Shown here: piece after piece, positions 6,924-24,030 of the stretch
Numbering within the stretch: position 1 is the stretch's first letter
Layout: every line of letters starts with the position of its first letter
Assembly (NCBI RefSeq): GCF_000271665.2
Contig: NZ_CP010978.1
Coordinates: 3,874,501-3,938,500 of the forward strand
Reading direction: 5' to 3'
DNA length: 64,000 nt
From: Pelosinus fermentans JBW45
GTDB taxonomy: Bacteria; Bacillota; Negativicutes; DSM-13327
Program-made: the position numbers and the translations under genes
Notes under the pieces: model-generated
Told to the model about the DNA's origin: nothing
Databases searched by the model: none
The model's input: only the letters and a program-made list of their open reading frames with translations

Positions 6924-8309
6924 TTGAAGAAATATTATGTCTTAGACACTAATGTTCTATTACACTCTCCAAATGCCCTATACGCTTTTAATGAGCATAC
7001 TATTGTAATTCCTGAAGTCGTGATTGAAGAACTGGATAAGTTTAAAAAGGAATCAACAGAACGTGGCACCAACAGTCGTAGTGTCAGTCGCATTATCGAT
7101 AGTCTGCGTACACAAGGCAATTTACTAAAAGGAGTCCCCATCAATAACAGTGGTGGAATTCTCATCTTAGAATCTAATCATACTGCCACTGCCATGCCGC
7201 TTCACTGGGAAGGCGATAAAGCCGATAATCGTATATTGCAAGTTTGCAAGGGACTGGCAGAAAGCGGTCACCAAACTATTTTAGTGAGCCGCGATACGAA
7301 TATGCGTGTTAAATCTTCCATTTTAAACATTCAAGCCGAAGACTTTCGTAATGATAAAGTTTCAGATATAGACCAGCAATACACGGGACGTATAATTGCC
7401 TATACTTCTAGTGAAGTAATCAATCGCTTCCACGAAAGTACAAATCATTATATTGATCCTGATACTCTTTATGTTTTTGACGATCTGGCAGGTATATTAA
7501 TTCCTGCAGTCTTAGTTACCAACCAATTCTTGCTAATAAGGTCAACGGATAATGATCGTCATACCGCATTAGGCCGTTTTGATGGAAAAAAGGTCGTTCA
7601 CTTACAATACCAAAATCGTAATCCTTTTGGAGTTACGCCCCGCAATGTGGGGCAAATTTTCATGCAAGAATGCCTTATGATGAGTGCTGAAGAAGCACCT
7701 TTAGTCATTTTAAAAGGTATTTCTGGAACTGCTAAAACCTTTTATGCCTTAGCAGTCGGACTTTACAACTATATGGAATGTCGTCCAAGAGAGTATCACC
7801 ACATTCTAATCTGTCGTCCAAATTCAATGTTAGATGAAGGAATTGGTTTCCTACCTGGCACAGAAGCCGAAAAAATCGAACCTTACATGCGTGCGATAAA
7901 GGATAATTTATTTACATTAATGTCAGGTAACACACCCATGGAAGATAAAGATGTACTGCAAACGGAAGATACGGTTAATATGCTATTTGAAAAGCGTGTT
8001 ATTCAAACCGAAGCATTGGCCTATCAAAGAGGTCGCTCACTGCAAAAGTATTGGGTTATTTTTGACGAAATGCAAAATGCTACCCCACGCCAAGCAAAGG
8101 CTGTATTAACCCGTCCTGGCCTGGGTACTAAAATCATACTCATTGGTGATCCAGCCCAAATTGATAATCCACTGTTAGACAGCCAGTCCAACGGCTTAAG
8201 CTATGCCAGCGAAAAAATGATTGGATCTAAACTATGCTTTCAGGTAACCATGCTGCCTGAAGAATGCGAGAGATCTCCCTTGGCAGCAGAAGCGGCTATG
8301 AGACTGTAA
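6924..8309 (+). CDS. PhoH family protein with N-terminal PIN domain (YlaK type)
   Basis: Predicted PIN nuclease fused to a PhoH ATPase, 461 residues, probably acting on RNA. The TTG at 6924 follows an AAAGGGGG ribosome site. The PIN domain (about 1-145) opens with YVLDTNVLLHSP and has acidic residues at VIEELDKFKK and ADNRILQV. The PhoH domain (from about 245) has Walker A GISGTAKT and Walker B WVIFDEMQNATP, followed by ILIGDPAQID. Length and layout match Bacillus YlaK. The name PhoH comes from an E. coli phosphate-regulon gene; nothing here shows phosphate control of this copy. It is monocistronic, ending at a terminator shared with splB. Confidence 0.93.
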   Translation: MKKYYVLDTNVLLHSPNALYAFNEHTIVIPEVVIEELDKFKKESTERGTNSRSVSRIIDSLRTQGNLLKGVPINNSGGILILESNHTATAMPLHWEGDKADNRILQVCKGLAESGHQTILVSRDTNMRVKSSILNIQAEDFRNDKVSDIDQQYTGRIIAYTSSEVINRFHESTNHYIDPDTLYVFDDLAGILIPAVLVTNQFLLIRSTDNDRHTALGRFDGKKVVHLQYQNRNPFGVTPRNVGQIFMQECLMMSAEEAPLVILKGISGTAKTFYALAVGLYNYMECRPREYHHILICRPNSMLDEGIGFLPGTEAEKIEPYMRAIKDNLFTLMSGNTPMEDKDVLQTEDTVNMLFEKRVIQTEALAYQRGRSLQKYWVIFDEMQNATPRQAKAVLTRPGLGTKIILIGDPAQIDNPLLDSQSNGLSYASEKMIGSKLCFQVTMLPEECERSPLAAEAAMRL

Positions 8310-8327
8310 TCTTTTATTGCATTATAT

Positions 8328-8366
8328 AAAATAGGCTCGTACATTTTTTGTACAAGCCTATTTTTT
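8328..8366. terminator. Bidirectional terminator between phoH-like gene and splB
   Basis: Stem AAAATAGGCT-GTAC pairs with GTAC-AAGCCTATTTT and is flanked by A-runs and T-runs, so it can stop both convergent genes. Confidence 0.85.
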
Positions 8367-8369
8367 GCT

Positions 8370-9401
8370 TCATACAAAGTACTCGATGGCGGCATGAGGA
8401 AAATACGTATGTATTCCTTTATGCATATCCTTTTTCATTTCATCCATCGTTTCTTTTTGATATATATATTTTCCATAACCAAACTGCCCGTACTTAAATT
8501 TACGTTCCTCTTCTTTCATAGGTAATTTCGTTTCCGGAAATATATCAAGAATGTTATTTTTAGCTCTTTTAGTGAAGCGATGAGCGATTAACTCAAAAGT
8601 TATATCACTACGATCCTTTTTCGGAAGCTGTTTATCTAATTCCTGTAGTAATTGTAAATACTCTTCTTTCCAGCCAGGATAATAAAAAATAGGGGCAATA
8701 ATAAAACCAACAGGATATCCCTTCTCTGCTACTTTAGCAGCGGCCTCTACTCTTTGGATTAAAGTCGGCGTTTTATGCTCATACTGGTCAATAATTGATG
8801 CTGCATTGATGCTAAAGCGAAAGCGGGTATGTCCATTATGTTTAGCCGTTAATAAAGAATCCACCCGATCATGCTTGGTAACAAAGCGAAATCTGCCGAA
8901 TGGCTGTCTGCCAAAAAATTCAATAGTGTTATATAAAAGCCCTGTCAAATATTCTGTAGGAATTGGATCTGAAGTAGCTGCACCTTCAAACCAGGTGATT
9001 TCCGGTGCTCTCGCCCTGATGTAACGACTAGCCTGTTCCAATATTTCATTCACATTCACATACACCCTTAAATAAGGCTTCTTCCCTAAAGTAGTAGCAA
9101 GATAACAATATTCACACATACTCGAACAGCTAGTGGTCAACGGCAGCTGGTAGTGAGCCGATGGCTTACATCCTGCAAAATCTAGACTCTTTCTAATACC
9201 TACGACTAAGGTGTTCTTAGCTTCTTGATAGGCTTGCTGCGGAGTATCTCCCGGTATACCCGTAATTCGATTATGAGATCCAGTTAGCGTTATAGGTACC
9301 TTCATTTCTTGTAACTGTTCAAACACCTGTTGTCCAATGGGATATTCGAGTGCTTTGGGCTCGAAAAACGCTCTTTTGGGAATAAATTGATGACTCATCA
9401 T
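8370..9401 (-). CDS. splB: Spore photoproduct lyase
   Basis: Radical SAM enzyme that repairs the thymine dimer spore photoproduct in UV-damaged spore DNA during germination; 343 residues. The cluster-binding CxxxCxxC motif is present as CSSMCEYC at about residue 92, in the context LPLTTSCSSMCEYCYLATTL typical of SplB. The rest (VNVNEILEQASRYI, EGAATSDPIPTEY, RFRFVTKHDRVDSLL) also matches. ATG codons at 9401 and 9398 are adjacent; the second has better spacing from the GGGGGAG site, so the protein may be one residue shorter. No splA is nearby. Marks the organism as a spore former. Confidence 0.95.
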   Translation of the reverse strand: MMSHQFIPKRAFFEPKALEYPIGQQVFEQLQEMKVPITLTGSHNRITGIPGDTPQQAYQEAKNTLVVGIRKSLDFAGCKPSAHYQLPLTTSCSSMCEYCYLATTLGKKPYLRVYVNVNEILEQASRYIRARAPEITWFEGAATSDPIPTEYLTGLLYNTIEFFGRQPFGRFRFVTKHDRVDSLLTAKHNGHTRFRFSINAASIIDQYEHKTPTLIQRVEAAAKVAEKGYPVGFIIAPIFYYPGWKEEYLQLLQELDKQLPKKDRSDITFELIAHRFTKRAKNNILDIFPETKLPMKEEERKFKYGQFGYGKYIYQKETMDEMKKDMHKGIHTYFPHAAIEYFV

Positions 9402-9565
9402 ACTCCCCCTATCAATTTCCTAATTATCTTCTCTTAGTGTGAACATAATCGGACAAATTCTATGCAAATCTCTCGAAAAATAAAATAAAAGCCTCTGTTA
9501 GGTTGCTTTTTTAAGTATTTTGTTGTAAATTATTCAATAGATTGAGAAAGGTAGTTGATAAGAAT

Positions 9566-10192
9566 ATGAATGCTAAAGTGATTGATCATCCGCTAATTCA
9601 GCACAAATTATCCCTAATACGCAATATACATACAGGAACCAAAGAATTTCGTGAATTATTAGAAGAGATCTCAATGTTAATGGCTTTTGAAATCACTCGT
9701 GATCTCCCCTTAGAAGATGTAGAAATCGAGACTCCTGTTGCAAAATGTACTTGCAAAATGCTATCAGGTAAAAAATTAGGTATTGTTCCCATTTTGCGGG
9801 CTGGCTTAGGTATGACCAATGGTGTTGTCAGACTTATTCCTGCTGTTAAAGTGGGCCATATCGGCTTATACCGTGATCCCCAAACCCTAATGCCAGTAGA
9901 GTACTACTGTAAATTACCAAGCGATGTAGCAGAAAGAGACTTTATTCTAATTGATCCCATGCTTGCAACAGGCAACTCTTTAGCTGCTTCAATTGACATC
10001 CTCAAAAGAAAAGGTGCTAAAAACATTAAGTGCATGTGTCTAGTTGCCTCACCAGAAGGCATACAATTAATTAATAACTCCCATCCTGACGTAGATATTT
10101 TCGTAGCTGCGATTGATGAAAAATTAAATGATCACGGCTACATTGTCCCAGGTTTAGGAGATGCCGGCGATCGAATCTTTGGTACCAAGTGA
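9566..10192 (+). CDS. upp: Uracil phosphoribosyltransferase
   Basis: Salvages uracil: uracil + PRPP gives UMP + PPi, in the cytosol. 208 residues from the ATG at 9566, the usual family length; an upstream TTG in frame at 9542 would add eight residues and is less likely. The PRPP loop is [15 protein letters not shown], and the C-terminus [14 protein letters not shown] is the standard UPRT ending that contacts uracil. Other conserved segments are PILRAGLGM and [15 protein letters not shown]. Single gene with its own terminator; divergent from splB. Confidence 0.97.
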
Positions 10193-10210
10193 TCTTTACA
10201 GCAATTTATG

Positions 10211-10258
10211 GTGTGCAGTTTTTGTCTAAATGGACAAGGCTGTATACCTTTTTTTTAT
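10211..10258 (+). terminator. Terminator of upp
   Basis: Arms 10211-10226 and 10232-10247 pair through Watson-Crick and G-U pairs with one bulge, followed by CTTTTTTTTATT. Confidence 0.75.
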
Positions 10259-10409
10259 TATCATCGTCTCATCAAGAAAAACAATCTGTACTATTAATAA
10301 AAATTACCAATAAAATTTTCATTAAATTTACATATAAATAACACATTTTTTTTGAAAAAGGTGTATAATGGACTTAAAAAATAATGAAACCGAAAGGCTG
10401 GGATACAGT

Positions 10410-10652
10410 ATGGCGATTTGGCAAGTTGAATTAGACAGTAGAGATGTGAGTCAATATCGCAAGAAGTTGAAAAATCGCGGTTTTATCTCGGCGAGCTATT
10501 TTTCCTACAATGGCTTTGATCTCGATAAAATGAGAAAATTGGCCAAAGAAGGAAAAATTGATGCTATGCGCTGCATTATCGGGAAATCTATACGATGGTA
10601 TTACTTAGAGCAACAAGCAGAAACTGCACGACTCAAGGGTGAGCTATACTAA
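10410..10652 (+). CDS. Small protein of unknown function
   Basis: Not recognised. An 80-residue basic, soluble protein from the ATG at 10410 (MAIWQVELDSRDVSQYRKKL...). An in-frame ATG at 10368 would add 14 residues, but it overlaps a likely -10 box (TATAAT, 10364-10369), so the later start, with GGGA seven bases before it, is preferred. Features: an aromatic-rich middle (ASYFSYNGFDLDKM), then KLAKEGKIDAMRCIIGKSIRWYYLEQQAE, which resembles a short helical or helix-turn-helix segment; this is not enough to call DNA binding. No signal peptide or membrane helix. It is an isolated gene with a very strong terminator. Confidence 0.65.
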   Translation: MAIWQVELDSRDVSQYRKKLKNRGFISASYFSYNGFDLDKMRKLAKEGKIDAMRCIIGKSIRWYYLEQQAETARLKGELY

Positions 10653-10676
10653 AATCGAATATAGTCCTTCATATAG

Positions 10677-10738
10677 GAGAAATAGAGTCAGTGTTTCCTT
10701 GAAACAAAAAGGAAACACTGACTCTATTTCTCTTTTTT
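10677..10738 (+). terminator. Strong terminator: perfect 24-bp stem
   Basis: Arms 10677-10700 and 10709-10732 are perfectly complementary over 24 bp with an 8-nt A-rich loop and are followed by TTTTTT. It ends the small gene at 10410-10652. The stem is much longer than a usual terminator. Confidence 0.85.
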
Positions 10739-10768
10739 ATAGAACTAGAATTTATAAGTTTAAGGGAA

Positions 10769-10874
10769 TGTTGAACACAGAGGACACAGAGTTCGCTTAA
10801 GAGCACAGAGGTTTTTAACTCTAATTATCTTTTCTCTGTGTGCTCTGCGCCTCTGTGGTTCGGTTTACTTTATT
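10769..10874. repeat. Dispersed imperfect palindrome, copy 2
   Basis: Left side GAACACAGAGGACACAGAG (about 10772-10791) and right side CTCTGTGTGCTCTGCGCCTC (about 10834-10853) closely match copy 1 at 6689-6800. The 338-bp gap from 10653 to 10990 holds the long terminator, this repeat and the promoter region of the following oxidoreductase operon; no gene is seen. Confidence 0.75.
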
Positions 10875-10990
10875 ATGTTTTAAAGGACGCGCAGCGTTTT
10901 TCTTATTATTTTGTCGCTTTTATAAAGGGTTTCGTCTAACTTTCACGAAGTAATTGTCATATAAAGGCAAATAATACCCAGGGGGATAAT

Positions 10991-12748
10991 ATGATGAAGA
11001 AACGATATTATACTTGCCTCTTTGCTGGTGAGGCTGGCTACGGAGTCATGAGTGCTGGTTCTATCATTGCCAAAGGAGCAAATCGTAATGGTTTGTGGTC
11101 TTTCTTAGTAAATGAATACCCTTCCCTGATTCAGGGTGGGCTCAATTCTTGTCTGGTACGTCTGGCTGATCAATCCCTTTCATCTTATGAAGAAACCCTT
11201 GATTTTTTAGGGCTCTTTTCCCAACAAGGCTTTGATTATTATGCGGATAAGCTGAATCCGGGGGCTATTGTACTATATGATCCTGCGACTACCCAAGTGG
11301 ATGAAAGCAAAGTCCCTGAGGGTACTTTACTGTATCCTGTTTCTTTAACAAGTTTCGTTCCTAAAGGCGGAGCTAAGATCATGATCAACAGTGCCATGTT
11401 AGGAAGTTTTTGTGCTCTTACAGGCTATCCTAAGAATGTGGTCATTGATGTAATAAAAAATGAATTCCACAATGCTAAAATACAACAGGAAAACATTAAA
11501 ATTTTAGAAGAAGTATATGAACATATCGTATCATCCTTACCTTCCCAGAACGTCTTTCCCTTCACTTTTCATAAACACGCGGAACCCAAGATTCTAATTA
11601 ACGGCAATGAGGCTATTTCCATTGCAGCGATTCAAGCAGGCTGCAAATTTTCCGCTGGTTATCCCATGACACCAGGCTCAAGCGTTTTAAGCTATTTAGC
11701 TGATCATGGCAGAGACTATGGTCTAGTTTTTAAGCAGGCCGAAGATGAAATTGCCGCTATTAATATGCTCATTGGCGCTTCCTTCACGGGGGTACGTTCC
11801 ATTGGTTCTACTAGCGGCGGCGGCTTTGCCTTAATGGTAGAAGCCTTAGGTTTTGCTGCGATGGCCGAAGTGCCCGTGGTTATGGTCAATGCCCAAAGAG
11901 GTGGTCCTAGTACTGGGCTGCCAACGCGAACCGCACAGGCTGACTTAAATTTTGTCGTCTATGCCTCTCAAGGAGAATTCCCACGGATTGTCTTAGCTCC
12001 CGGAGATATCGAAGAATGTTTTTATGAAACATTTCGGGTTTTTAATCTCGCAGATAAATACCAAGTACCATGCATTATTTTAACTGATAAATATTTGGCT
12101 GATTCCTCTGTTTCTCATCCCCTCTTTGCTACTGGTCATTTAACAATTGACCGCGGCAAACGGTTTGAAGAAAACGTAGATCGCCAAGAACCTTATTTGC
12201 GTTATCAAAATACCCCTGATGGCATTTCAACAAGGGCCTTTCCGGGGCAAGTCGGCGGCCGCCATATTGCTACTAGTTATACTCATGGTGAGGACGGTTT
12301 TTATAGTTCGGGAAATAAGGAATACGCCCTTAACGAACCAACTGTAACAAAAGAGAGTATGGATAAATTATATAATAAATTACCCTCTATGGAGAAAGAC
12401 ATACCTGCTATTAAATTTTATGGCCCATCTGAAGCTGATGTAACGATTATTGCCTGGGGCTCAACGAAAGGAGCCATCTTAGAAGCCATGGAGCAAGCAG
12501 CAATCGAAGGAATTTGCGTAAACTTTTTGCAGGTTCTCTATATTTCTCCATTTCCAGCTACCGCTGTTGAACCAATTCTGCAAAAAGCCAAGAAGACCCT
12601 CCTCATTGAAGGCAATAAGACAGGGCAGCTTGGCGGCATTCTTGCCGCTCATACGGGGTACAAAGCGAACCATTCCTTCTTCAAATATAACTCTCGTGCT
12701 TTTGTGCCTTCAGAAATTCTTGCAAAGATCAAGGAGGTGCTTCTCTAA
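10991..12748 (+). CDS. 2-oxoacid:ferredoxin oxidoreductase, fused gamma-alpha subunit
   Basis: Part of the thiamine-dependent enzyme that oxidatively decarboxylates a 2-oxoacid to an acyl-CoA with reduction of ferredoxin; the likely substrate is 2-oxoglutarate or a branched 2-oxoacid. 585 residues. The gamma domain comes first (CLFAGEAGYGVMSAGSIIAKGA, about 8-190), then alpha (GYPMTPGSSVLSYLADHG and STSGGGFALMVEALGFAAMAE). The ATG at 10991 has GGGGG five bases before it. The stop overlaps the next gene's start by one base, so the two subunits are translated together. No ferredoxin-type delta subunit is adjacent. Substrate cannot be settled from sequence alone. Confidence 0.92.
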   Translation: MMKKRYYTCLFAGEAGYGVMSAGSIIAKGANRNGLWSFLVNEYPSLIQGGLNSCLVRLADQSLSSYEETLDFLGLFSQQGFDYYADKLNPGAIVLYDPATTQVDESKVPEGTLLYPVSLTSFVPKGGAKIMINSAMLGSFCALTGYPKNVVIDVIKNEFHNAKIQQENIKILEEVYEHIVSSLPSQNVFPFTFHKHAEPKILINGNEAISIAAIQAGCKFSAGYPMTPGSSVLSYLADHGRDYGLVFKQAEDEIAAINMLIGASFTGVRSIGSTSGGGFALMVEALGFAAMAEVPVVMVNAQRGGPSTGLPTRTAQADLNFVVYASQGEFPRIVLAPGDIEECFYETFRVFNLADKYQVPCIILTDKYLADSSVSHPLFATGHLTIDRGKRFEENVDRQEPYLRYQNTPDGISTRAFPGQVGGRHIATSYTHGEDGFYSSGNKEYALNEPTVTKESMDKLYNKLPSMEKDIPAIKFYGPSEADVTIIAWGSTKGAILEAMEQAAIEGICVNFLQVLYISPFPATAVEPILQKAKKTLLIEGNKTGQLGGILAAHTGYKANHSFFKYNSRAFVPSEILAKIKEVLL

Positions 12749-13720: not shown

Positions 13721-14506
13721 TTATCTTACTAAATCATAAGTGACGCAAACAGGACGGCCTGTCCTCGGTTCCTTAACGATCTGTGCATCAATTTGAAAGA
13801 CTTCTTTTAATGCATGAGGTACCATGACCTCGTCAGGCGTCCCATGACAGATGATACTCCCACCCTTAATTGCAATCATATAATCGGCAAAACGAGCCGC
13901 TAAATTTAAATCATGTAAGACCATCACAATGGTGTAGCCCTGCTTTTTATTAAGATCACGTAAAAGCTCGAGTACCTCCAACTGATGAGATAGATCAAGG
14001 TAAGTAGTAGGCTCATCAAGCAGAATAAGATCAGTCTGCTGCGCCAGTGCCATAGCAATCCACACACGCTGACGCTGCCCGCCGGAAAGGGTATCCACAG
14101 AACGATGTTCCAGTTCTGAAAGCTTCGTCACTTCCAGGGACCAGTCGATAATCTTTCTGTCGTTCAAGGCGAGCTTGCCAAAGCCCCGTTGATAAGGGAA
14201 ACGTCCATATGATACCAACTCACCCACGGTCACCCCATGAGGAGCGGTAGGACTTTGTGGCAGAATCGCCATTTTTTTAGCAATTTCCTTAGTCGCGAGG
14301 GTTGTAATATCCTCTTCATTTAAATAGACCGCCCCCGTTTTAAAGCGCAGAATGCGCCCCACTGCCTTAAGAACACTAGATTTTCCACAACCATTAGGAC
14401 CGATGATGGTGGTAATTTTCCCATAGGGGATTTTCATATCTAAAGCTTCTACAACGATACTTTCATCGTAGGCAATTGCTAAATTCTTTGTTGTGATACT
14501 ATTCAT
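13721..14506 (-). CDS. Iron-siderophore-type ABC transporter ATPase (FecE/FhuC family)
   Basis: Cytoplasmic ATPase, 261 residues, that drives the FecCD-type importer encoded just upstream. Walker A GPNGCGKSS at about residue 36, the Q loop ILPQSPTAP, signature LSGGQRQRVW, Walker B LILLDEPTTYLD and the switch His in MVLHDLNLAARF are all present. The sequence TTYLDLSHQLEVLELL is typical of FecE/FhuC/BtuD-like proteins. It is the last gene of the AraC-led operon, 36 bp after the second permease. Substrate (ferric siderophore, heme or corrinoid) cannot be told from the ATPase; the upstream Fur box favours iron. Confidence 0.93.
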   Translation of the reverse strand: MNSITTKNLAIAYDESIVVEALDMKIPYGKITTIIGPNGCGKSSVLKAVGRILRFKTGAVYLNEEDITTLATKEIAKKMAILPQSPTAPHGVTVGELVSYGRFPYQRGFGKLALNDRKIIDWSLEVTKLSELEHRSVDTLSGGQRQRVWIAMALAQQTDLILLDEPTTYLDLSHQLEVLELLRDLNKKQGYTIVMVLHDLNLAARFADYMIAIKGGSIICHGTPDEVMVPHALKEVFQIDAQIVKEPRTGRPVCVTYDLVR

Positions 14507-14542: not shown

Positions 14543-15571
14543 CTATCTTCCGCTTTTTGCTAGCAGATATAGAAAATAAGGTGCGCCCACAACTGCAACA
14601 ACGATACCTGTCGGTATCTCCGAGGGCTGCACAAGAGTCCGGGCCAGTATATCAGATATGGACACCAGTAAAGCACCTGTTAATGCACAACACGGCAATA
14701 AAATCTGATGCCCTGGTCCCACGAGGCGACGTGCTAAATGGGGGGCTATCAGTCCAACAAAACTTATATTACCGCTAACGGCGACGCAAGATGCCGCCAA
14801 TGCCACTGCAACCGCCAATAGTATCCTTCGCTCCCGTTCTACAGATACACCCAGACCCCAAGCAATTTCCTCACCAACACTTAGCACATCAAGAACCCGT
14901 GCCTTGAAAAATACATAAGGAACCAGTACTAGCAGCCATGGAAGCAGTGCTATGACAAACCTCCAACTAGCGCCCCAAATGCGCCCCGCCTGCCATACCG
15001 TGACAAAATTAAACTGACTCTCGTCCAGAAGAATAACCAAGACAATCATGGCAGCACTGATTCCCACCTGCATACCTACTCCCGTTAAAATCAGGCGCAG
15101 AGGGGATAATCCCTCTAGATTTTTATAAGCTAATAGGTAAATCAACACTGCCGCAAGGCCGGCGCCAATCAGTGCCAGAAAGGGCAGTGTGAATACAGAA
15201 AGGGCCGTTTTTGTTGGAAAAAGCAAAACAAATAGTACAACCATCAATCCAGCACCGGCGTTAATTCCTAATAGTCCAGGGTCAGCCAACGCATTTCTGG
15301 CTATTCCCTGAATGATGCATCCTGAAAGGGCAAGTCCCGCACCGACCAGCATAGCAATGATGATACGAGGCAGCCTGAAAGTAAACAAGACCAGATTTTC
15401 TTTGTCACTGCCACCTCCAAGTAGGATGCGTAGAAGATCATGGAACGTTAAGTGGGTATAGCCCGATTTCATGCTGAAGATGATTGAAAGAATCAGTAAA
15501 ATCCCTAGTAGAAGCAGCACAGCAATAATTTTTGAGCTTTTTTTCTTCTGTTGCTGGCCCGTAGAACCCAT
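14543..15571 (-). CDS. FecCD-family ABC transporter permease
   Basis: Inner-membrane permease, 342 residues with about nine or ten hydrophobic helices. Family marks: FRLPRIIIAMLVGAGLALSG near the N-terminus, then GLLGINAGAGLMVVL, GEEIAWGLGV (the coupling helix region facing the ATPase) and VSGNISFVGLIAPHLARRLVGPGHQ near the C-terminus. It directly abuts the preceding permease gene, and the two should form a heterodimer. Part of the Fur-associated uptake operon. Confidence 0.93.
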   Translation of the reverse strand: MGSTGQQQKKKSSKIIAVLLLLGILLILSIIFSMKSGYTHLTFHDLLRILLGGGSDKENLVLFTFRLPRIIIAMLVGAGLALSGCIIQGIARNALADPGLLGINAGAGLMVVLFVLLFPTKTALSVFTLPFLALIGAGLAAVLIYLLAYKNLEGLSPLRLILTGVGMQVGISAAMIVLVILLDESQFNFVTVWQAGRIWGASWRFVIALLPWLLVLVPYVFFKARVLDVLSVGEEIAWGLGVSVERERRILLAVAVALAASCVAVSGNISFVGLIAPHLARRLVGPGHQILLPCCALTGALLVSISDILARTLVQPSEIPTGIVVAVVGAPYFLYLLAKSGR

Positions 15572-16621
15572 CTACGCCTCCCTCCTTTGTTTACGTGCTA
15601 AGTACAGGAAAAAGGGGACACCGATGAGGGCGATGATGGCACCGATTGGTGTTTCATGCAGAGGATTAAGCGTTCGCGCACCCAGATCTGCCAACACCAG
15701 CAGCAAGCTCCCCAGCACTGCCGAGGAAGGAATGATCCAGCTATAGTCTACCCCTACCAAATAACGAGCAATATGGGGAATGATAAGACCAACCAAGCCC
15801 ACAGGTCCTACCACTGATACAGAGGCTCCTGCCAGTACTAAGACAACAAGAGCGGCGGCGAGCTTTACAATGTTCACCCTCAGTCCCAGCCCCTGAGCAA
15901 TTTCCTCCCCTAAGCTGAGCAGTGAAATGGAGCGGGAAAGCAGGATCGCTGCAAATAATGTTACTGCTATACACGGAAACAGGATGCGAAGCTGCTGCCA
16001 CGTCGTACCCGCAACACCACCTGCAGTCCAAAAGGCTATATCCTGTGCGACACCAAAATAAATAGCAATGCCATGGCCGATTGCTGCCAGCAGCGCACTA
16101 ACAGCAATTCCTGCCAACACCAGCCTCATAGGAGTGGCTCCTCCCCGCTGCAGGGAACTAATCCCATACACCAATCCGGCACTAATCGAGGCACCGAAAA
16201 AAGAATATAAAACGAGGTAGCTGTAAGATAGACCGGGCACAAAGGCAAAACAGAGAGACAACATAAAACTTGCTCCTGCATTAAGACCCATTAGACCGGA
16301 ATCCGCCATGGGGTTCTGCGTGATGCCCTGCATCACTGCACCTGCCACAGCTAAAGCAGCCCCTACTAACGCACTTGCCAACACACGAGGCAGACGTAAA
16401 TCCTGTATAATTAAATGCTGCATTGAACCGGGAGTAAAGTGTATCAGCGCGTCCCATGCAGCAGACAGAGGCATCTGCACCACGCCCTGTGTAAGGGAGA
16501 ATGCCATGGATATCACCAGCACACAAAGTCCAATTGCAATTACTAAGAGTGCTCTCCAAGAGCGACCTGTTTTTTTTACAAAGGGATCTGAACGAACAGC
16601 GTCATTTGTTGAAACTTTCAT
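15572..16621 (-). CDS. FecCD-family ABC transporter permease
   Basis: Second permease of the importer, 349 residues. Conserved stretches include LRLPRVLASALVGAALAVAG, GLMGLNAGASFMLSL, GEEIAQGLGLRV and VVGPVGLVGLIIPHIARYLVG. It has a basic cytoplasmic N-terminus and about nine or ten membrane helices. Its stop is followed immediately by the next permease start. The gene lies 47 bp after the ABC-B transporter gene, so all are probably one transcript. Confidence 0.93.
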   Translation of the reverse strand: MKVSTNDAVRSDPFVKKTGRSWRALLVIAIGLCVLVISMAFSLTQGVVQMPLSAAWDALIHFTPGSMQHLIIQDLRLPRVLASALVGAALAVAGAVMQGITQNPMADSGLMGLNAGASFMLSLCFAFVPGLSYSYLVLYSFFGASISAGLVYGISSLQRGGATPMRLVLAGIAVSALLAAIGHGIAIYFGVAQDIAFWTAGGVAGTTWQQLRILFPCIAVTLFAAILLSRSISLLSLGEEIAQGLGLRVNIVKLAAALVVLVLAGASVSVVGPVGLVGLIIPHIARYLVGVDYSWIIPSSAVLGSLLLVLADLGARTLNPLHETPIGAIIALIGVPFFLYLARKQRREA

Positions 16622-16668: not shown

Positions 16669-18384
16669 TTAAGTACTGAATTGAGCGTGATGAAGACGAC
16701 TGTATATTCCCTTTGCAGCTAACAGTTTTTGATGACTCCCTTGCTCTGCAATACCTTCTGGTGTAACTACGATGATACGATCCGCATTTTTAATTGTCGC
16801 CAGCCGATGAGCAATGACGAGAGTTGTCCGTCCCTTGGACAGCTCTGCCAGTGCTTTTTGAATTGCCATTTCCGTTTCCGTATCCAAAGCAGAGGTGGCC
16901 TCATCCAGTATTAGAATCGCAGGATTCTTAAGAAACATGCGGGCAATAGAAAGCCTCTGCTTCTGTCCACCAGAAAGTTTCACGCCACGCTCGCCGATAA
17001 CGGCATCCAGACCGTCCGTTTGGGCACGGATAAATTCATCCATTTGAGACCGTACTACCGCATCCCAGATCTCTTCCTCTGTTGCATCCATTTTACCGTA
17101 CAGGATATTTTCCCGAATGGTTCCAGCAAATAGAAATACATCCTGCTGCACAATGCCAATTTGCTGCCGGAGAGATTGGAGTTTAATTTTATTAATATCA
17201 ACTCCATCAATGGTGATACTTCCTGATAATACCTCATAAAAGCGAGGTAACAGGCTGCACAGGGTAGTCTTTCCTCCGCCGGAGGGTCCTACAAAGGCTA
17301 CCGTTTCGCCTGTGGGAATGAAAAGATCTACATTCTCCAGCACAGGACATTCTTCCTCATAGGCAAAGCTCACGTTGTTGTAGCGAATATTTCCTTGCAG
17401 CTGCGGTGCATCAATTGCGTCGGGTGCATCAACAATATCTGGGTGGATATCCATAATTTCCACAAAATTTTTAAATCCGGCAATGCCTTTGGGGATTCTC
17501 TCAACCAGAGTGCTAATCATTTGAATAGGACGGATGATGACATTGATGAGTAGAATAAAACTGAACATTTGCCCACTAGTCAACTCTCCTTGCAAAAAAA
17601 ACCAGCTTCCTCCTGCTAACGCAAATAAAGATAGAAATCGCATAAGCAGGTAAGTAATCGCTGTGCTGGTGGTGAAGATCTTAAATCCTTCCATCTTGAC
17701 CTTGTGGAACCATTGATTATCGGAAATGAACAGCTTTTTTTGATGCTCCTCATTCGTGAAAGCCTGCACCACACGGATGCCTCCCAGAGCATCCTGCAGC
17801 CGGGCATAAAAACAGCCTACGCTTGCAAACATCTGCCTAAAAGCACGGGTCATCTTTTTAGCGAAAACAAAGATGACCACCATTAAAAGCAGCAATAACA
17901 AAAGCGTCATCAGTGACAGCTTCCAGCTGATGGTAAACATCACTCCTAATGCACCAATCAGTGTGATGATGATGATAAACACATGTTCTGGTCCATTATG
18001 AGCCATGCTCCCCACATCCATTAGGTCATTGGAGATACGTGACATCAACTGACCAGTCCTATGGGTGTCGAAAAAACGGAAAGATAATTTCTGCATATGA
18101 CTAAACAGCTCATTACGCATGTCGGTCTCTATATTGAGTCCTAGCATATTACCCCAATAATTGATCACAACATTAAGCCCCGTATTAATGATATAGACGC
18201 TTAACAGACCTGTACATGCTAAAAGTACCCAGTGCCAGTTGCCACTAGGCAACAATTTGTCCACTACTTGCGCGACCGCCAAGGGAAAAACCAATTCCAA
18301 AGCGGACATTATTACCGCACAGGAAAAATCTAATAAGAATAGCCCCTTGTAAGGACGATAATAACTAAAAAAACGACGAACCAT
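16669..18384 (-). CDS. ABC-B type half-transporter (membrane domain fused to ATPase)
   Basis: 571-residue half-transporter expected to act as a dimer. Six membrane helices in about 1-320 (the region from FFSYYRPYKGLFLLDF to LLINVIIRPIQMISTL), then an ATPase with Walker A GPSGGGKTTL, signature LSGGQKQRLS, Walker B ILILDEATSALD and the switch His in IAHRLAT. By fold it looks like an exporter. In siderophore loci this type can export a siderophore or, as in YbtP/YbtQ of yersiniabactin, take part in import. No siderophore synthesis gene is visible, so the direction of transport is open. It lies between the binding protein and the permeases within the uptake operon. Confidence 0.88.
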   Translation of the reverse strand: MVRRFFSYYRPYKGLFLLDFSCAVIMSALELVFPLAVAQVVDKLLPSGNWHWVLLACTGLLSVYIINTGLNVVINYWGNMLGLNIETDMRNELFSHMQKLSFRFFDTHRTGQLMSRISNDLMDVGSMAHNGPEHVFIIIITLIGALGVMFTISWKLSLMTLLLLLLLMVVIFVFAKKMTRAFRQMFASVGCFYARLQDALGGIRVVQAFTNEEHQKKLFISDNQWFHKVKMEGFKIFTTSTAITYLLMRFLSLFALAGGSWFFLQGELTSGQMFSFILLINVIIRPIQMISTLVERIPKGIAGFKNFVEIMDIHPDIVDAPDAIDAPQLQGNIRYNNVSFAYEEECPVLENVDLFIPTGETVAFVGPSGGGKTTLCSLLPRFYEVLSGSITIDGVDINKIKLQSLRQQIGIVQQDVFLFAGTIRENILYGKMDATEEEIWDAVVRSQMDEFIRAQTDGLDAVIGERGVKLSGGQKQRLSIARMFLKNPAILILDEATSALDTETEMAIQKALAELSKGRTTLVIAHRLATIKNADRIIVVTPEGIAEQGSHQKLLAAKGIYSRLHHAQFST

Positions 18385-18467: not shown

Positions 18468-19439
18468 TCACTTTGCCAGAGTTTTGACAACGCTTTTAAC
18501 TCCATACTCTGTCGCAACGATTCCCACTGTAAAGCCCGATCGATCTACGAAATAGACATGCCCTCCTTTCACTGCCTGTAAGGCACTCCATATGGAGTTG
18601 CCCTTCAAATCTTCAAGTTTTTTTTCAATACCCGGAACTTTCATTAAAAAGATATGATCAGGATTCAGTTCTGCCAGTCTTTCCAGGGAAATCCTCCCTG
18701 TTCTTTCCGGATAGCCATTAGGGGCATGCAATCCCAAACCACTTTGATCATCAAAATACGCGGGATAATTCTGCTTACCAAAGATACCAAACGAACCTTT
18801 ATCTGCCAATGCTAAGAATGCAAATGTTTCCTCTTGATAGGGTAAAAGTTTATCTCGTGATTGAACAATCAGCCACTCAAGCTGCGCGATACGCGCCTCT
18901 GCATCCTGTTCTTTGCCAATCACTTTTGCAATCTCCCGCGGCACACTTCTCCAATCAAGGGAAAGCGGCTGTGTATCTAACAAGACAACAGGAGCAATCT
19001 TGGATAATTCATCATATATCTCTTCGTTATATCTTGTACCAATGATTAACTCAGGTTCAACATCAAGCAATTTTTCAAGATTAATACTGGTTTGGCTTCC
19101 CAAGTCAATTAGAGAATTCGCTGCCAGATACGGTTTTAGTGAATCCCATTGTGACATAACAGTAACTTGAGGTGCTGCAACAGGTGGTGCATTCAGTGCA
19201 AACATCGTTTCTACAAGCGGGAAAGCCACCATGGCAATTCGCTGGGGCTGCTTTTCAATACTAATTTTATTACCTTTTGAATCTATGTAAGTCCGAGGGA
19301 AATCTGCTTCTTTTCCCGGCATTTCACTACTGTCAGATGATGGTTTGGAGGCAATATTTGTTTTCGGCTGGTAGCTGCATCCTACTAATCCTCCCGTAAC
19401 TATCCCTAATGACAGAAGTATTACAACTATTCTTTTCAT
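18468..19439 (-). CDS. Iron-siderophore-type ABC transporter binding lipoprotein
   Basis: 323-residue extracytoplasmic binding protein of the FecB/FhuD/BtuF class. The ATG at 19439 follows GGAGGAGG and opens a lipoprotein signal (MKRIVVILLSLGIVTGG, lipobox LVGC); a start 34 codons upstream in frame has no support. The fold is shown by RIAMVAFPLVETMFALNAPP, LGSQTSINLEKLLDVEPELIIG in the first lobe and LERLAELNPDHIFLM in the second. It precedes the ABC-B, permease and ATPase genes in one operon under the AraC regulator. The ligand is not determinable here. Confidence 0.92.
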   Translation of the reverse strand: MKRIVVILLSLGIVTGGLVGCSYQPKTNIASKPSSDSSEMPGKEADFPRTYIDSKGNKISIEKQPQRIAMVAFPLVETMFALNAPPVAAPQVTVMSQWDSLKPYLAANSLIDLGSQTSINLEKLLDVEPELIIGTRYNEEIYDELSKIAPVVLLDTQPLSLDWRSVPREIAKVIGKEQDAEARIAQLEWLIVQSRDKLLPYQEETFAFLALADKGSFGIFGKQNYPAYFDDQSGLGLHAPNGYPERTGRISLERLAELNPDHIFLMKVPGIEKKLEDLKGNSIWSALQAVKGGHVYFVDRSGFTVGIVATEYGVKSVVKTLAK

Positions 19440-19550
19440 ATGCCTCCTCCGTTTATTTGCCGTCACATTTCTAGCATTGATAATGAAATTCGACATCACT
19501 ACAGTACTATACCAAGTTAAAAAAAAAGTAGGAATAGACATATTCCTAAA

Positions 19551-20378
19551 TTACCCCGTATTTTTTTCTAAAAAGTTTCGCAACGTACTAGGTGAGGTAC
19601 CTGTACGCTTTTTAAAAAGCTTGCTAAAATAATAAGAATCAGAATAACCGACATAATCAGAGATTTCTGATACGGAGCAAGTTGTAGTGCATAGTAATTC
19701 TTTGGCGCGTTTCATCCGCTGTGATATTAAATATTCATTTGGACTCATCTTCACGTGTTTTTGGAACAAATAAGCAAATTGCTTACTGCTCAAACCATAC
19801 TGCCCAGCTAATTTTGGAATGGTCAGCTGTTCCATGTAGTGATTGTCCATATATTCAATTGACTGCTCGACTAGCGACCGTCCACTTTCCTTTCCCCGAT
19901 TTGTCGAACATGTCAAAACTTCATCCATGACACTTAAGAATAATGATTTCGCCCGCAGAGCCTGCAGGTTACTCGGCATTCTGCAGGTGTGGCAAAGTCT
20001 TTGCAGCATATCATTAATCCGCGGACTGTAGCCCGAGTCTAGTTCATAATGGGATAATGCGTAAGGAAATGTGTACTTTTCACTGTCAGGAATTTTATAG
20101 TGTATCAGCACAAATTCCCACGTTGACTCCCCAAGAACCTCTTTGTCCAACGTCATTCTAGGTCCTGCATGAAAAAATCTGCCGGGTTCCATTTCATAAG
20201 TCACACCCTCGAAAGTCATTCTTGCCTTTCCTCGCAAGGGAAAAATAATTCCTGAGGCTGCTGCAGTATAGGTTGCAAAACTTTTTCTGCCTGGTTCTAT
20301 CACAAATCTACCCGCGTCGACAATATTAAATGATATCCGGGAAAAACCGTCTGCCATATCATCAATGTTAACCTTCAT
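19551..20378 (-). CDS. AraC family transcriptional regulator of the iron-uptake operon
   Basis: 275-residue regulator with an N-terminal cupin-like sensing part (about 1-160, containing GIIFPLRGKARMTFEGVTYEM in split form) and a C-terminal double helix-turn-helix (about 170-272): LTIPKLAGQYGLSSKQFAYLF and CSVSEISDYVGYSDSYYFSKLF. It is the first gene of the operon, with GAGGAG before the ATG. AraC regulators placed this way (YbtA, Btr) use the imported siderophore as co-inducer; that role is inferred. It diverges from the nitrogenase-like genes and could control both sides. Confidence 0.9.
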   Translation of the reverse strand: MKVNIDDMADGFSRISFNIVDAGRFVIEPGRKSFATYTAAASGIIFPLRGKARMTFEGVTYEMEPGRFFHAGPRMTLDKEVLGESTWEFVLIHYKIPDSEKYTFPYALSHYELDSGYSPRINDMLQRLCHTCRMPSNLQALRAKSLFLSVMDEVLTCSTNRGKESGRSLVEQSIEYMDNHYMEQLTIPKLAGQYGLSSKQFAYLFQKHVKMSPNEYLISQRMKRAKELLCTTTCSVSEISDYVGYSDSYYFSKLFKKRTGTSPSTLRNFLEKNTG

Positions 20379-20486: not shown

Positions 20487-20505
20487 GACAATGAATATCA
20501 TTATC
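20487..20505 (-). promoter_or_regulatory. Fur box
   Basis: Reverse strand GATAATGATATTCATTGTC matches the classical 19-bp Fur box GATAATGATAATCATTATC at 17 positions. It lies 109 bp before the AraC start and overlaps a possible TTGTCA -35 element for that operon, and about 135 bp before the promoter of the nitrogenase-like operon. Confidence 0.82.
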
Positions 20506-20640: not shown

Positions 20641-20669
20641 TTTACTTCAACTTTTTTACTTGGTATGAT
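20641..20669 (+). promoter_or_regulatory. Promoter of the nitrogenase-like operon
   Basis: TTTACT (20641-20646), a 17-bp spacer, and TATGAT (20664-20669) with an upstream TGG extension resemble a sigma-A promoter. The ATG at 20665 lies inside this -10 element, which supports TTG 20731 as the real start of the first gene. Upstream, AGAATACT (20546-20553) and AGTATTCT (20584-20591) are inverted copies 30 bp apart and could be an operator. Confidence 0.6.
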
Positions 20670-20730
20670 GGTAAATACATTGATTAATTTTCGATATTAT
20701 GAAAGCATATCGCAGAAAGAAGGTTTGTTA

Positions 20731-21480
20731 TTGAAAAAAATTGCTATCTATGGGAAAGGCGGTATTGGGAAATCCACGACAGTGTCCAATGTAGCAGCGG
20801 CTATGGCCTGTATGGGGCTCCGTGTGATGCAAATCGGCTGCGACCCTAAGGCTGACTCTACCCGCAACTTAACAGGTGGACAGTCCATTCCAACAGTGCT
20901 GGATGTTTTGCGGCAAAAAGGTGACGCCATGTTGAGCGATTTCTTAGTAGAAGGAGCTTGCGGCGTTTTTTGTGTGGAAGCCGGTGGACCAGTTCCGGGG
21001 GTAGGCTGCGCGGGGCGCGGTATTATCACTGCCTTTGAAAAACTAGCGGAATTAAACGCATTTGAACACTATAAGCCAGATATTGTACTTTATGATGTAC
21101 TAGGAGATGTTGTTTGCGGTGGTTTCGCCATGCCGATCCGCGGGGGCTATGCCGATGAAGTCTGCATCGTCACCTCCGGAGAAATGATGTCGCTGTATGC
21201 CGCTGCCAATATCACTCACGCGGTCAAAAGCTTTGGAAAACGGGGATATGCCACACTCCGCGGGCTAATCCTCAATGCTAAAAACATTGATAACGAAGAA
21301 TCCTTGGTTGCACAGGCTGCCAGTGAAATGGATACGCAGATTCTTTATCATCTCCCACGCGACCCACTGGTCCAGCAGGCAGAAGCACAAGGTAAAACTG
21401 TGACAGAGGCTTTTTCAGCTAGCCCTATGGCCGTGCATTATCAAACTCTAGCGGCTCTTTTATTGGAAGATTCACGCTAA
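20731..21480 (+). CDS. Nitrogenase-like Fe protein (NifH/BchL/CfbC family)
   Basis: ATP-dependent electron donor for a nitrogenase-like reductase, 249 residues. The TTG at 20731 has AAGAAGG before it and gives [16 protein letters not shown], the family's usual N-terminus with the P-loop at 8-16. Both cysteines that hold the bridging [4Fe-4S] cluster in NifH are present: C93 in GVGCAGRG and C129 in LGDVVCGGF (C97 and C132 in NifH numbering). The switch I region [11 protein letters not shown] is also intact. It is shorter than true NifH (about 290) and no nif genes for cofactor assembly are near, so nitrogen fixation is unlikely. Its partners are the next two genes. Relatives act on porphyrins (BchL), Ni-sirohydrochlorin (CfbC) or C-S bonds (MarH); the substrate here is unknown. 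Confidence 0.92.
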
Positions 21481-21514: not shown

Positions 21515-22807
21515 GTGCCCGTTTTACATGACAACATGTTGACTCATCTAAAGAAATTATCCACCCTCCAGTCAAATAAGGGAGTTCATTTTCTAACTCC
21601 CGCTGCTATTCCAGGCAGTCATTGTCCAATGAACGCTGCAGCCCGTTTAGCTGGATCGATACAAGGGCTGTCCTCACTAATAATAGGCACACAAGAGTGT
21701 GCCTATTACAGTCGATTGGTTCTTCGAGAGCCTTATGGAAAAGCTGGAGAACTCCATTGGATGTATGTGCTCGATGCCAATGAAGTAGTATTCGGCTGCC
21801 GAGAGGGTTTGAATCAGGCGCTTATTGAAATGGATCAAGCAGGCACAAAGGCCATATTGCTGATCGTTACTTGTTTGCCAGACTTGATCGGCGAGGACAT
21901 GGAAGCTATTATCCATGAGCTGCAGCCAAAACTAGCAGCGCGCCTTATTTCTATCTCTGCGCCTCATTTTGCCTGCAACGGTCACCCTTCTGGTATTTGG
22001 CGCACCTTAGAAGCTATGGCTGGCATTATGCAGCAATGTACTATTATTCCCCATAGTGCGAACCTCCTAGGTCTACACGCCGCATCTGCGTCAGAAATAC
22101 CTCTTTTAACTTCCTTGTCTGCTGCCGGCGTGAAGCTGCGAGGCTTAGGACCAGACAGCACACTGGATGAGTTTCTCAGCGCACCAGATGCAGCTATTAA
22201 TATTGTTCTGTCCCCTTATATGGCTCCCTTAGCAAAACGTATGGCCAATGACTTTAGTACCCCTTTTGTTTATTTGCACGATAAGTACAGCATAGATGAT
22301 ATTGATACGGCATACGCACGCATTGGGGAAATTTTAGATTTGGACTTCGGTGATGCTTTCACCAAAGGGCGAAACGCTTTGAAGAAAGCGCAGGAAAGAG
22401 CTGATGTTAACCTCAGCGAGTTAAGCTTTTTTGCAACCGATACATCCCTTGATCCCATTCCATTATCTGCTTACCTGTCCACCCAAGGCATGAAACCATT
22501 GCTGCTGCATATTGAAGAATTTTATCAGGAAGACAGGCAGTGGGCACAAGCCTTACATACCCAGGGACACGATCCCTTAGTGTGCCATCGGGTCAACAAT
22601 TTGGCGGAAGTATCCGTGTTTGAAATGCTAAAACCTGCTTTTAACTTAGGATCTGTACCGCCCTCACTGAAACAGAAAATATCTCATGTTGACCAGCTGC
22701 ATAAAATGAACGGCACCTTTGGTCATGAGCGAACCACCTGGCTGCTGGATAAAATAATGCAAGCGTTAGGCACGCCTGCAGCAGATTTGTCGAAAGAGGT
22801 GATGTAA
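21515..22807 (+). CDS. Nitrogenase component-1-like protein, cysteine-bearing subunit
   Basis: 430-residue NifD/BchN-like protein. The GTG at 21515 has an AGGAG site eight bases before it. Three cysteines fall at the positions that bind the P-cluster (or the DPOR NB-cluster): C37 (PGSHCPMN), C62 (GTQECAYY) and C120 (VTCLPDLIGED). The rest shows the repeated Rossmann-like folds of component 1. No clear equivalents of the NifD FeMo-cofactor ligands could be placed by eye. It overlaps the next gene by one base, so a 1:1 complex with that protein is likely. Function unknown; it is expected to receive electrons from the Fe protein at the front of this operon. Confidence 0.88.
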   Translation: MPVLHDNMLTHLKKLSTLQSNKGVHFLTPAAIPGSHCPMNAAARLAGSIQGLSSLIIGTQECAYYSRLVLREPYGKAGELHWMYVLDANEVVFGCREGLNQALIEMDQAGTKAILLIVTCLPDLIGEDMEAIIHELQPKLAARLISISAPHFACNGHPSGIWRTLEAMAGIMQQCTIIPHSANLLGLHAASASEIPLLTSLSAAGVKLRGLGPDSTLDEFLSAPDAAINIVLSPYMAPLAKRMANDFSTPFVYLHDKYSIDDIDTAYARIGEILDLDFGDAFTKGRNALKKAQERADVNLSELSFFATDTSLDPIPLSAYLSTQGMKPLLLHIEEFYQEDRQWAQALHTQGHDPLVCHRVNNLAEVSVFEMLKPAFNLGSVPPSLKQKISHVDQLHKMNGTFGHERTTWLLDKIMQALGTPAADLSKEVM

Positions 22808-24030
22808 TGGGATTGCACCGTTTTCATCCTACGCCATCTGGACGCATGGGTACTTTGTGGGCACTTTCTAGTATACGTAATGCAGCACTAGTGGAGTTTG
22901 GTTCCATGGGACATATGCTCTATGGGCGGGCAACATTAAAAAGAATGGGGAAAGATCCAGATTGTAAACTGTATTCTACCCATATTAATGAAAGCGATAT
23001 TGCCATGGGAGAAACCAATCGGCTGACGAGAGCGATTGCTGATATTGCTCTTAGGGATCAGCCTCGGGTAATTTTTGTGCTTCCCTCCACTATACCAGAA
23101 ATGATTGGTACGGATTTATCTGCTCTGTGCAAGGAACTGCAAACCAGTTATCCCCATGTACGGTTGCTGCCCTTTGAGGCCGGTGGTTTCAATATCGAAC
23201 TGCATCGTGGTGTGCAGGAGACTTTACTTTTGCTGGCAACAACACTGCCCCTGGATGTGCCGCCCACGCCAAATCCCACTTTTAACCTTATCGGGTCCTG
23301 CACTGACCTATTCCAGTTTAACGCAGACACCCAGGAAATTGTAAGAATGATGGAGGGAGCTTTCGGACTAAAGCCTTTATGTATAATGACTTCGGACACA
23401 TCCGTCGAAGATATCGAGCACATGGGCGGCGCTCATATCAATCTGGTAATTCGCCGGGAAGGCTTGTCCGCTGCCTGCCATTTACAACAGCAATTTGGTA
23501 CCCCTTTAGTCGAGGGTCGCCCCTACGGCATGCAGGGTACATACTCTTGGTTAGAGCAAATCGCTCAAATACTGGATAAGCCCATCAATCAAAGTTTTAT
23601 TTTGCAAGAACAAGCTGAAGCACGACCTATTATGGAAATCGCCCCTGGCTTTTTCTCTCATCAAAAAAAAACCGTGAAATTGTCCATCGGCGGTCATGCC
23701 GATGTAGTTGCAGGAATCCTTACTTATGCCTGCAGCGAACTAGGACTTACCCCTGATCTGTGCTGGTGCGATAGTCCTGCCATGGCGACAGAAGATCTGC
23801 CCTATTGGCAGGAAGCACAGTGGTCACAAACTATAACTAACAGACATCAGGGGCTGCTCATGGCCAGTGGCGAAGTGCTGACGTGGGCCGGTCGCAACAA
23901 TTTGGCGATGCAAATTGCCAATCCTAGTCGTGGATGGCAAATGTACCCCTATTCTCCACCGTATATGGGATTTCGCGGTGCAATGAATTTGGCGACCATG
24001 TGGATGAATGAAGTCGTACGAATACTCTAA
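22807..24030 (+). CDS. Nitrogenase component-1-like protein, cysteine-poor partner subunit
   Basis: 407-residue NifK/BchB-like protein. Segments aligned by eye to the P-cluster cysteine sites lack cysteine: TPSGRMGTLW, FGSMGHMLYGR (His at the second site) and VLPSTIPEMIGTDL (no Cys at the third). So any inter-subunit cluster would be held by the three cysteines of the other subunit plus perhaps one non-cysteine ligand here, as in DPOR. The C-terminus APYMGFRGA-like stretch (YSPPYMGFRGAMNLATMW) is characteristic of the superfamily. Start and stop overlap with the preceding gene (TAATG). It is the last gene of the operon, closed by a terminator. Confidence 0.86.
   Translation: MGLHRFHPTPSGRMGTLWALSSIRNAALVEFGSMGHMLYGRATLKRMGKDPDCKLYSTHINESDIAMGETNRLTRAIADIALRDQPRVIFVLPSTIPEMIGTDLSALCKELQTSYPHVRLLPFEAGGFNIELHRGVQETLLLLATTLPLDVPPTPNPTFNLIGSCTDLFQFNADTQEIVRMMEGAFGLKPLCIMTSDTSVEDIEHMGGAHINLVIRREGLSAACHLQQQFGTPLVEGRPYGMQGTYSWLEQIAQILDKPINQSFILQEQAEARPIMEIAPGFFSHQKKTVKLSIGGHADVVAGILTYACSELGLTPDLCWCDSPAMATEDLPYWQEAQWSQTITNRHQGLLMASGEVLTWAGRNNLAMQIANPSRGWQMYPYSPPYMGFRGAMNLATMWMNEVVRIL

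Follow-up and report, generated by a model that had tools for sequence, protein, structure and literature searches.

What does a nitrogenase-like ATPase with two component-1 subunits do beside a set of iron-uptake genes? The nitrogenase superfamily includes large groups without known function, and the window (the whole stretch of 64,000 nucleotides that was analysed, from a 5.38 Mb genome in a single contig whose near relatives are Pelosinus) carries such a set. Its H, D-like and K-like genes lie next to each other on the + strand, at 20665-21480, 21497/21515-22807 and 22807-24030 in the list of open reading frames.

Predicted cluster ligands of the H-D-K proteins

20665-21480, + strand: NifH/BchL-like ATPase (H); PF00142 (Fer4_NifH), 305 bits
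21515-22807, + strand: D-like component-1 subunit of the NifE/BchN type; PF00148 (Oxidored_nitro), 177 bits
21623-21625, + strand: D Cys37 (Cys43 in TTG numbering), first predicted cluster ligand; MAFFT, hhalign and conservation
21698-21700, + strand: D Cys62 (Cys68 in TTG numbering), second predicted cluster ligand; MAFFT, hhalign and conservation
21872-21874, + strand: D Cys120 (Cys126 in TTG numbering), third predicted cluster ligand; MAFFT, hhalign and conservation
22807-24030, + strand: K-like component-1 subunit of the BchB/NifN type; PF00148 (Oxidored_nitro), 193 bits
22912-22914, + strand: K His36, candidate for the fourth cluster ligand; aligned with BchB Asp36 and with the cluster Cys of NifK

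In alignment with NifH and BchL, H keeps the P-loop GKGGIGKST and both [4Fe-4S] cysteines, and its real start probably lies about 22 codons inside the longest open reading frame, because homologues begin at residue 22-23. The D-like gene may start at GTG 21515 or at the alternative TTG 21497, and the ribosome site AAAGGAG about 8 bases upstream indicates that GTG 21515 is likely the correct start; the residue numbers of the preliminary description count from this GTG. By hhalign, the D-like family profile matched NifE at E=7e-30 and BchN at 1e-11, and NifEN was the top profile match for the D-like and K-like subunits alike. The K-like subunit aligns without the C-terminal extension found in BchB, and the nearest solved folds to its AF2 model (pLDDT 85.6, pTM 0.88) were ChlB (2xdq_B, TM 0.86) and BchB (3aer_D, TM 0.85), ahead of NifN and NifK (TM up to 0.82 and 0.80, respectively). 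A DK fusion, obtained from Pelosinus propionicus L042 by translating across its one stop, was also modelled (pLDDT 80, pTM 0.71); the model packs unlike the NifEN heterodimer, its superposition on a NifEN fusion giving a TM of 0.37 and an rmsd of 27 A over 927 columns, where the one-residue linker may have forced wrong packing.

The MAFFT alignment combined 83 D and 83 K sequences with reference proteins from annotated plasmids (BchN/BchB from L121, NifD/K/E/N from L122 and VnfD/K from L125), and a second, independent alignment was made with hhalign, using family profiles against single references. Both matched D Cys37, Cys62 and Cys120 to the P-/NB-cluster cysteines of NifD, NifE and BchN. 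In both, K His36 occupies exactly the column of BchB Asp36 and of the NifK Cys, and no K Cys stands at any of the three cluster columns, which in K hold Pro/Ser, His36 and Thr/Ser/Ala. The preliminary description, on an alignment by eye, had proposed that D has cysteines at the three P-cluster-type positions and that K has none at the matching segments, with a His at the second site, and both alignments bear this out, as does homologue conservation for the D cysteines. It had also held that there is no FeMo-like cofactor, which agrees with the ligand columns aligned for both subunits: that of Cys275 contains Ser239 in D and Arg216 in K, with no Cys, and that of His442 has no His in D or K. Its likeness to the NB-cluster of DPOR stands as far as the 3+1 topology, the K fold and the position of His on Asp36 are concerned, but it is not specific, as NifEN has 3+1 too. 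Chlorophyllide reductase also takes three Cys from its D-type subunit and one residue from its K-type subunit. Since NifEN and chlorophyllide reductase share the arrangement, the pattern denotes a single [4Fe-4S] type and not DPOR as such. A DPOR-like, cofactor-free reading fits the ligand pattern, with the cluster itself predicted, and we infer both its [4Fe-4S] type and its ligation by His from the sequences.

Conservation was high at the predicted ligands. In TTG numbering, D C68 and C126 are 100% kept across 74 homologues, and C43 is kept in all of the 70 homologues aligned there. For K, we compared 40 proteins of the window's own clade (clade I) with 41 of a more distant one (clade II). 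Position 36 is His in all 40 clade-I proteins, which are close homologues, and Thr in 39/41 clade-II proteins, where His38 occurs in 38/41; a single Cys was found at this position among the 81 homologues. The Thr36/His38 pair of the distant clade means that a His ligand is not universal in the family, and on this comparison the predicted non-Cys fourth site is a trait of the whole family, while His36 is a trait of the window's clade. Glu30, His59, Glu62, Asp64, Ser94 and Asp103 of K are kept in both clades. Identity is about 40-60% inside clade I and about 30% to clade II. In the maximum-likelihood tree, the D and K families each form a supported clade apart from Nif, and the Bch rows are long, with unsure placement. 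Clade I alone has extra near-invariant cysteines, namely D C101 and C363 (counted from TTG 21497) and K C53, C165, C192 and C321 (from ATG 22807).

The iron-uptake neighbourhood

20487-20505, - strand: Fur-box-like operator GATAATGATATTCATTGTC (17/19), separating the nifH-like gene from the divergent araC gene
19551-20378, - strand: AraC-family regulator, divergent from H; best NCBIfam match a regulator of the Btr type (82.7 bits, cut-off 900)
18468-19541, - strand: siderophore-type ABC substrate-binding lipoprotein; PF01497, nearest structure FeuA (bacillibactin), 2why_A, E=1e-18
16669-18384, - strand: MsbA-like ABC exporter, between the binding-protein and permease genes
15572-16621, - strand: FecCD-type permease, from the open reading frame and gene-cluster comparison
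14543-15571, - strand: FecD/FhuB-type permease; FecD model 275.7 bits, cut-off 406
13721-14506, - strand: FecE/FepC-type ATPase; FecE model 324.9 bits, cut-off 375

None of 300 shuffles produced a match of 16/19 for the Fur box of the window, and boxes of at least 16/19 were found in 18 of the 82 loci, where shuffling predicts 0.05. By these matches, the HDK genes sit in iron-uptake clusters marked by Fur boxes, and Fur control is predicted. Among the loci compared, only those of Pelosinus have the MsbA-like exporter within the uptake cluster; we speculate that it could serve in siderophore recycling, by re-export of the emptied siderophore.

Neighbours were counted in the loci with enough flank, 27 of clade I and 33 of clade II. 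FecCD permeases are nearby in 21/27 and 29/33 of these, respectively; for substrate-binding proteins the figures are 22/27 and 27/33. Some HDK loci have no linked transporter. The top solved match of the clade-I binding proteins is FeuA (162 bits), and in clade II all 24 binding proteins tested match IsdE, with HupD/IsdE as the top solved matches. The heme ligands of IsdE are Met78 and His229. The binding protein of one clade-II locus, L105, keeps this heme-ligating Met and His, and about 7 of the 24 clade-II proteins retain both, the gut sub-branch not among them. Many clade-II loci also carry a flavodoxin of the BilS-type family (17/17 tested), and diderm HDK loci carry TonB siderophore receptors as well. 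Thus, as judged by sequence matches, the uptake proteins divide with the enzyme clade into FeuA/FepB-like putative catecholate-siderophore binders in clade I and IsdE-like putative heme binders in part of clade II.

Two other substrates were considered and rejected. Heme was discarded for the window itself, where the binding protein is FeuA-like and not IsdE-like. As for vitamin B12, the binding proteins resemble siderophore or heme types more closely than they resemble BtuF, and of 14 loci scanned with Rfam only one gave a cobalamin riboswitch, L101 of Phascolarctobacterium (632-823), ahead of a separate TonB-receptor gene some 4 kb upstream of a clade-II HDK cluster. In Sporomusa termitida, an enterochelin-esterase-like alpha/beta hydrolase gene lies directly 3' of HDK on plasmid pSPTER (L123, 11576-12310).

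Another HDK set, L031 (G000:C1:297000-316000; H 8200-8955, D 8889-10250, K 10231-11460), occurs in the genome of the window; its D and K are 43% and 60% identical to those of the window, and it shares His36. Its genes run in one direction in the order TonB receptor, binding protein, permease, permease, ATPase, H, D, K; the binding protein matches FepB, and the TonB siderophore receptor scores above its cut-off (358 vs 223.5 bits). A cluster of four component-1 genes, arranged like nifDKEN, lies at G000:C1:4987907-4993626, and a further pair at 1241758-1244952. Given nifDKEN-like genes elsewhere in the genome, HDK is probably not its nitrogenase.

A proposed reductase for iron acquisition and its alternatives

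We propose that H-D-K may be a nitrogenase-like, ATP-driven reductase for iron acquisition that releases iron from imported chelates, a reading that we consider plausible though not quite probable. Its narrower form, in which a His-ligated [4Fe-4S] ATP-driven reductase of anaerobes strips iron from ferric catecholate siderophores (heme in the sister clade), is put forward a shade more tentatively, and the substrate and the Fe(III) reduction chemistry are presumed. The H2 [4Fe-4S] ATPase would dock on (DK)2, as in DPOR, and each ATP-gated cycle would deliver one electron to the lone [4Fe-4S] cluster that sits at every D/K interface. Cys37, Cys62 and Cys120 of D would hold this cluster, joined in the window's clade by K His36, and there would be no FeMo-type cofactor. 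The electron would then go directly to an iron chelate brought in by the neighbouring FecBCD-type transporter, reducing its Fe(III) and freeing Fe(II). For the window's clade this chelate would be a ferric siderophore of the catecholate type, and for part of clade II it would be heme. We favour an iron-acquisition reductase because of the ligand columns, their conservation, the absence of FeMo-cofactor ligands and the K fold near ChlB/BchB; because of the FecCD and binding-protein linkage, the Fur boxes and the clade-specific binding-protein types; and because of the TonB receptor beside L031, the esterase-like gene in Sporomusa and the BilS-type flavodoxin in clade II. However, the chief doubt is that ferric catecholates resist reduction very strongly (about -0.75 V for enterobactin at pH 7), perhaps too strongly even with ATP gating. 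The loci without a transporter, the Thr36/His38 pair as the fourth ligand in clade II and the alternative offered by K His59 also speak against the proposal, and gene proximity can reflect the use of imported metal instead of chelate reduction.

The chief rival to chelate reduction is an organic-ligand reductase in the style of DPOR, chlorophyllide reductase and CfbCD, which would reduce a double bond of an imported tetrapyrrole, either heme or one of its derivatives, or a bond of the siderophore backbone, with iron release as a secondary effect. The lone-[4Fe-4S] nitrogenase-like enzymes with known function, DPOR and CfbCD, do work on tetrapyrroles (PMC12552129), and clade II has IsdE-type heme binders together with a flavodoxin of the BilS family, named for bilirubin reduction; nevertheless, the window's clade brings in siderophore-type ligands and its K lacks the C-terminal extension of BchB, and we regard this rival as unlikely, though to be taken seriously. 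A scaffold or assembly factor that links imported iron to the building of metal cofactors was put forward earlier (PMC3464626) and would accord with the NifEN-like profile scores and with the other nif-like component-1 genes of the genome. It sits poorly with two classes of iron-chelate import, the Fur boxes, the absent cofactor ligands and the fact that the compared loci show no recurrent linkage with nif, hydrogenase or further target enzymes, and it seems to us improbable.

Another possibility concerns the fourth ligand alone and is otherwise compatible with chelate reduction: a different K residue (His59 or Ser94) or a water or thiol might complete the cluster, with His36 acting as a proton donor or gate. 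The Thr36 of clade II (39/41) with its His38 and the retention of His59 and Ser94 in both clades would be explained, whereas the invariance of His36 in the window's clade (40/40) and its position exactly on BchB Asp36 argue against it, and we give it some credence while leaning the other way. The shared fold and the three D cysteines could also suggest that P-cluster and FeMo-like cofactor are both present, as in nitrogenase or methylthio-alkane reductase. This reading was rejected on the ligand columns and is strongly disfavoured, to the point of being very improbable, as K homologues lack the P-cluster cysteines, apart from one Cys at position 36 among 81, and neither subunit has equivalents of Cys275 or His442.

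If chelate reduction is true, ATP-coupled low-potential reduction would extend to metal acquisition, and it would become clear how anaerobes can draw on siderophores or heme that ordinary donors cannot reduce. There would also be a natural series of Asp, Cys, His and Thr at one cluster-ligand position, in which the tuning of potential by the ligand could be studied, and many "nifH" matches in clostridia and gut bacteria would likely be iron-uptake genes, not genes of nitrogen fixation.

Relation to known systems

In Clostridium botulinum (CLM_0808/0809) and Alkaliphilus oremlandii (Clos_0313/0314), Dos Santos et al. (2012) described NifE-like proteins with three P-cluster cysteines and NifN-like partners with none, which adjoin NifH and an ABC transporter; they considered a non-Cys ligand possible, as in DPOR, speculated that metal transport might be coupled to the assembly of a cofactor, and gave the group no assigned function or fourth ligand (PMC3464626). 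As this group is evidently related, the 3-Cys/0-Cys asymmetry is known and not new. The window's set resembles it in the three Cys of the E-like and none of the N-like protein, the adjacent NifH and ABC genes and the absence of FeMo-cofactor ligands, and differs from it in belonging to another clade, in His36, in its contiguous HDK genes and in its siderophore-type importers. In L086 (Alkaliphilus transvaalensis), NifH and an ABC ATPase are encoded upstream of these genes, as in the group. In the tree, related species of Alkaliphilus and Clostridium place in clade II, a match of species and not of the named loci, and we infer that clade II is the group of Dos Santos et al. New here are His as the fourth-ligand candidate, the Fur-box iron-uptake context and the clade split of the uptake proteins; the open-licence literature gave no report of His36, Fur control, the siderophore/heme split or a function, which is not proof of novelty.

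DPOR shares with the window's set H and a two-subunit component 1, three N-type Cys plus one B-type non-Cys residue in the same place, the absence of a FeMo-cofactor site and a common fold. Unlike DPOR, the HDK family has His36 (clade I) or Thr36 (clade II) instead of Asp36. The proteins of the window are about 18-20% identical to those of DPOR and score below the model cut-offs (BchN 26 vs 420, BchB 90 vs 490 and BchL 198 vs 345 bits); there are no pigment genes near HDK, the context is iron transport, and K lacks the C-terminal extension of BchB. NifEN is similar in the three Cys of NifE, but NifN contributes a Cys and the L-cluster is bound, whereas K has His36 and the window's HDK is not nif-linked. 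Nitrogenases (NifDK and the alternatives) have six P-cluster Cys, three per subunit, in contrast to none in the window's K. The Group IV systems (CfbCD, MarHDK and IsrHDK) are anaerobic reductases of the same H/D(/K) architecture, but their operons serve F430, methylthio-alkane or isethionate sulphur, and Mar has a P-cluster and a large cofactor.

By the tree, a third HDK lineage is represented by L124 (Treponema saccharophilum plasmid pTS1, 8058-11231), which lies beside FecB/FecC/FepC genes and has a near relative with a protein of 800 residues. It has Cys at K position 37 and a different D cysteine pattern; its one vote is included in the clade-II counts, and clade I is unaffected.
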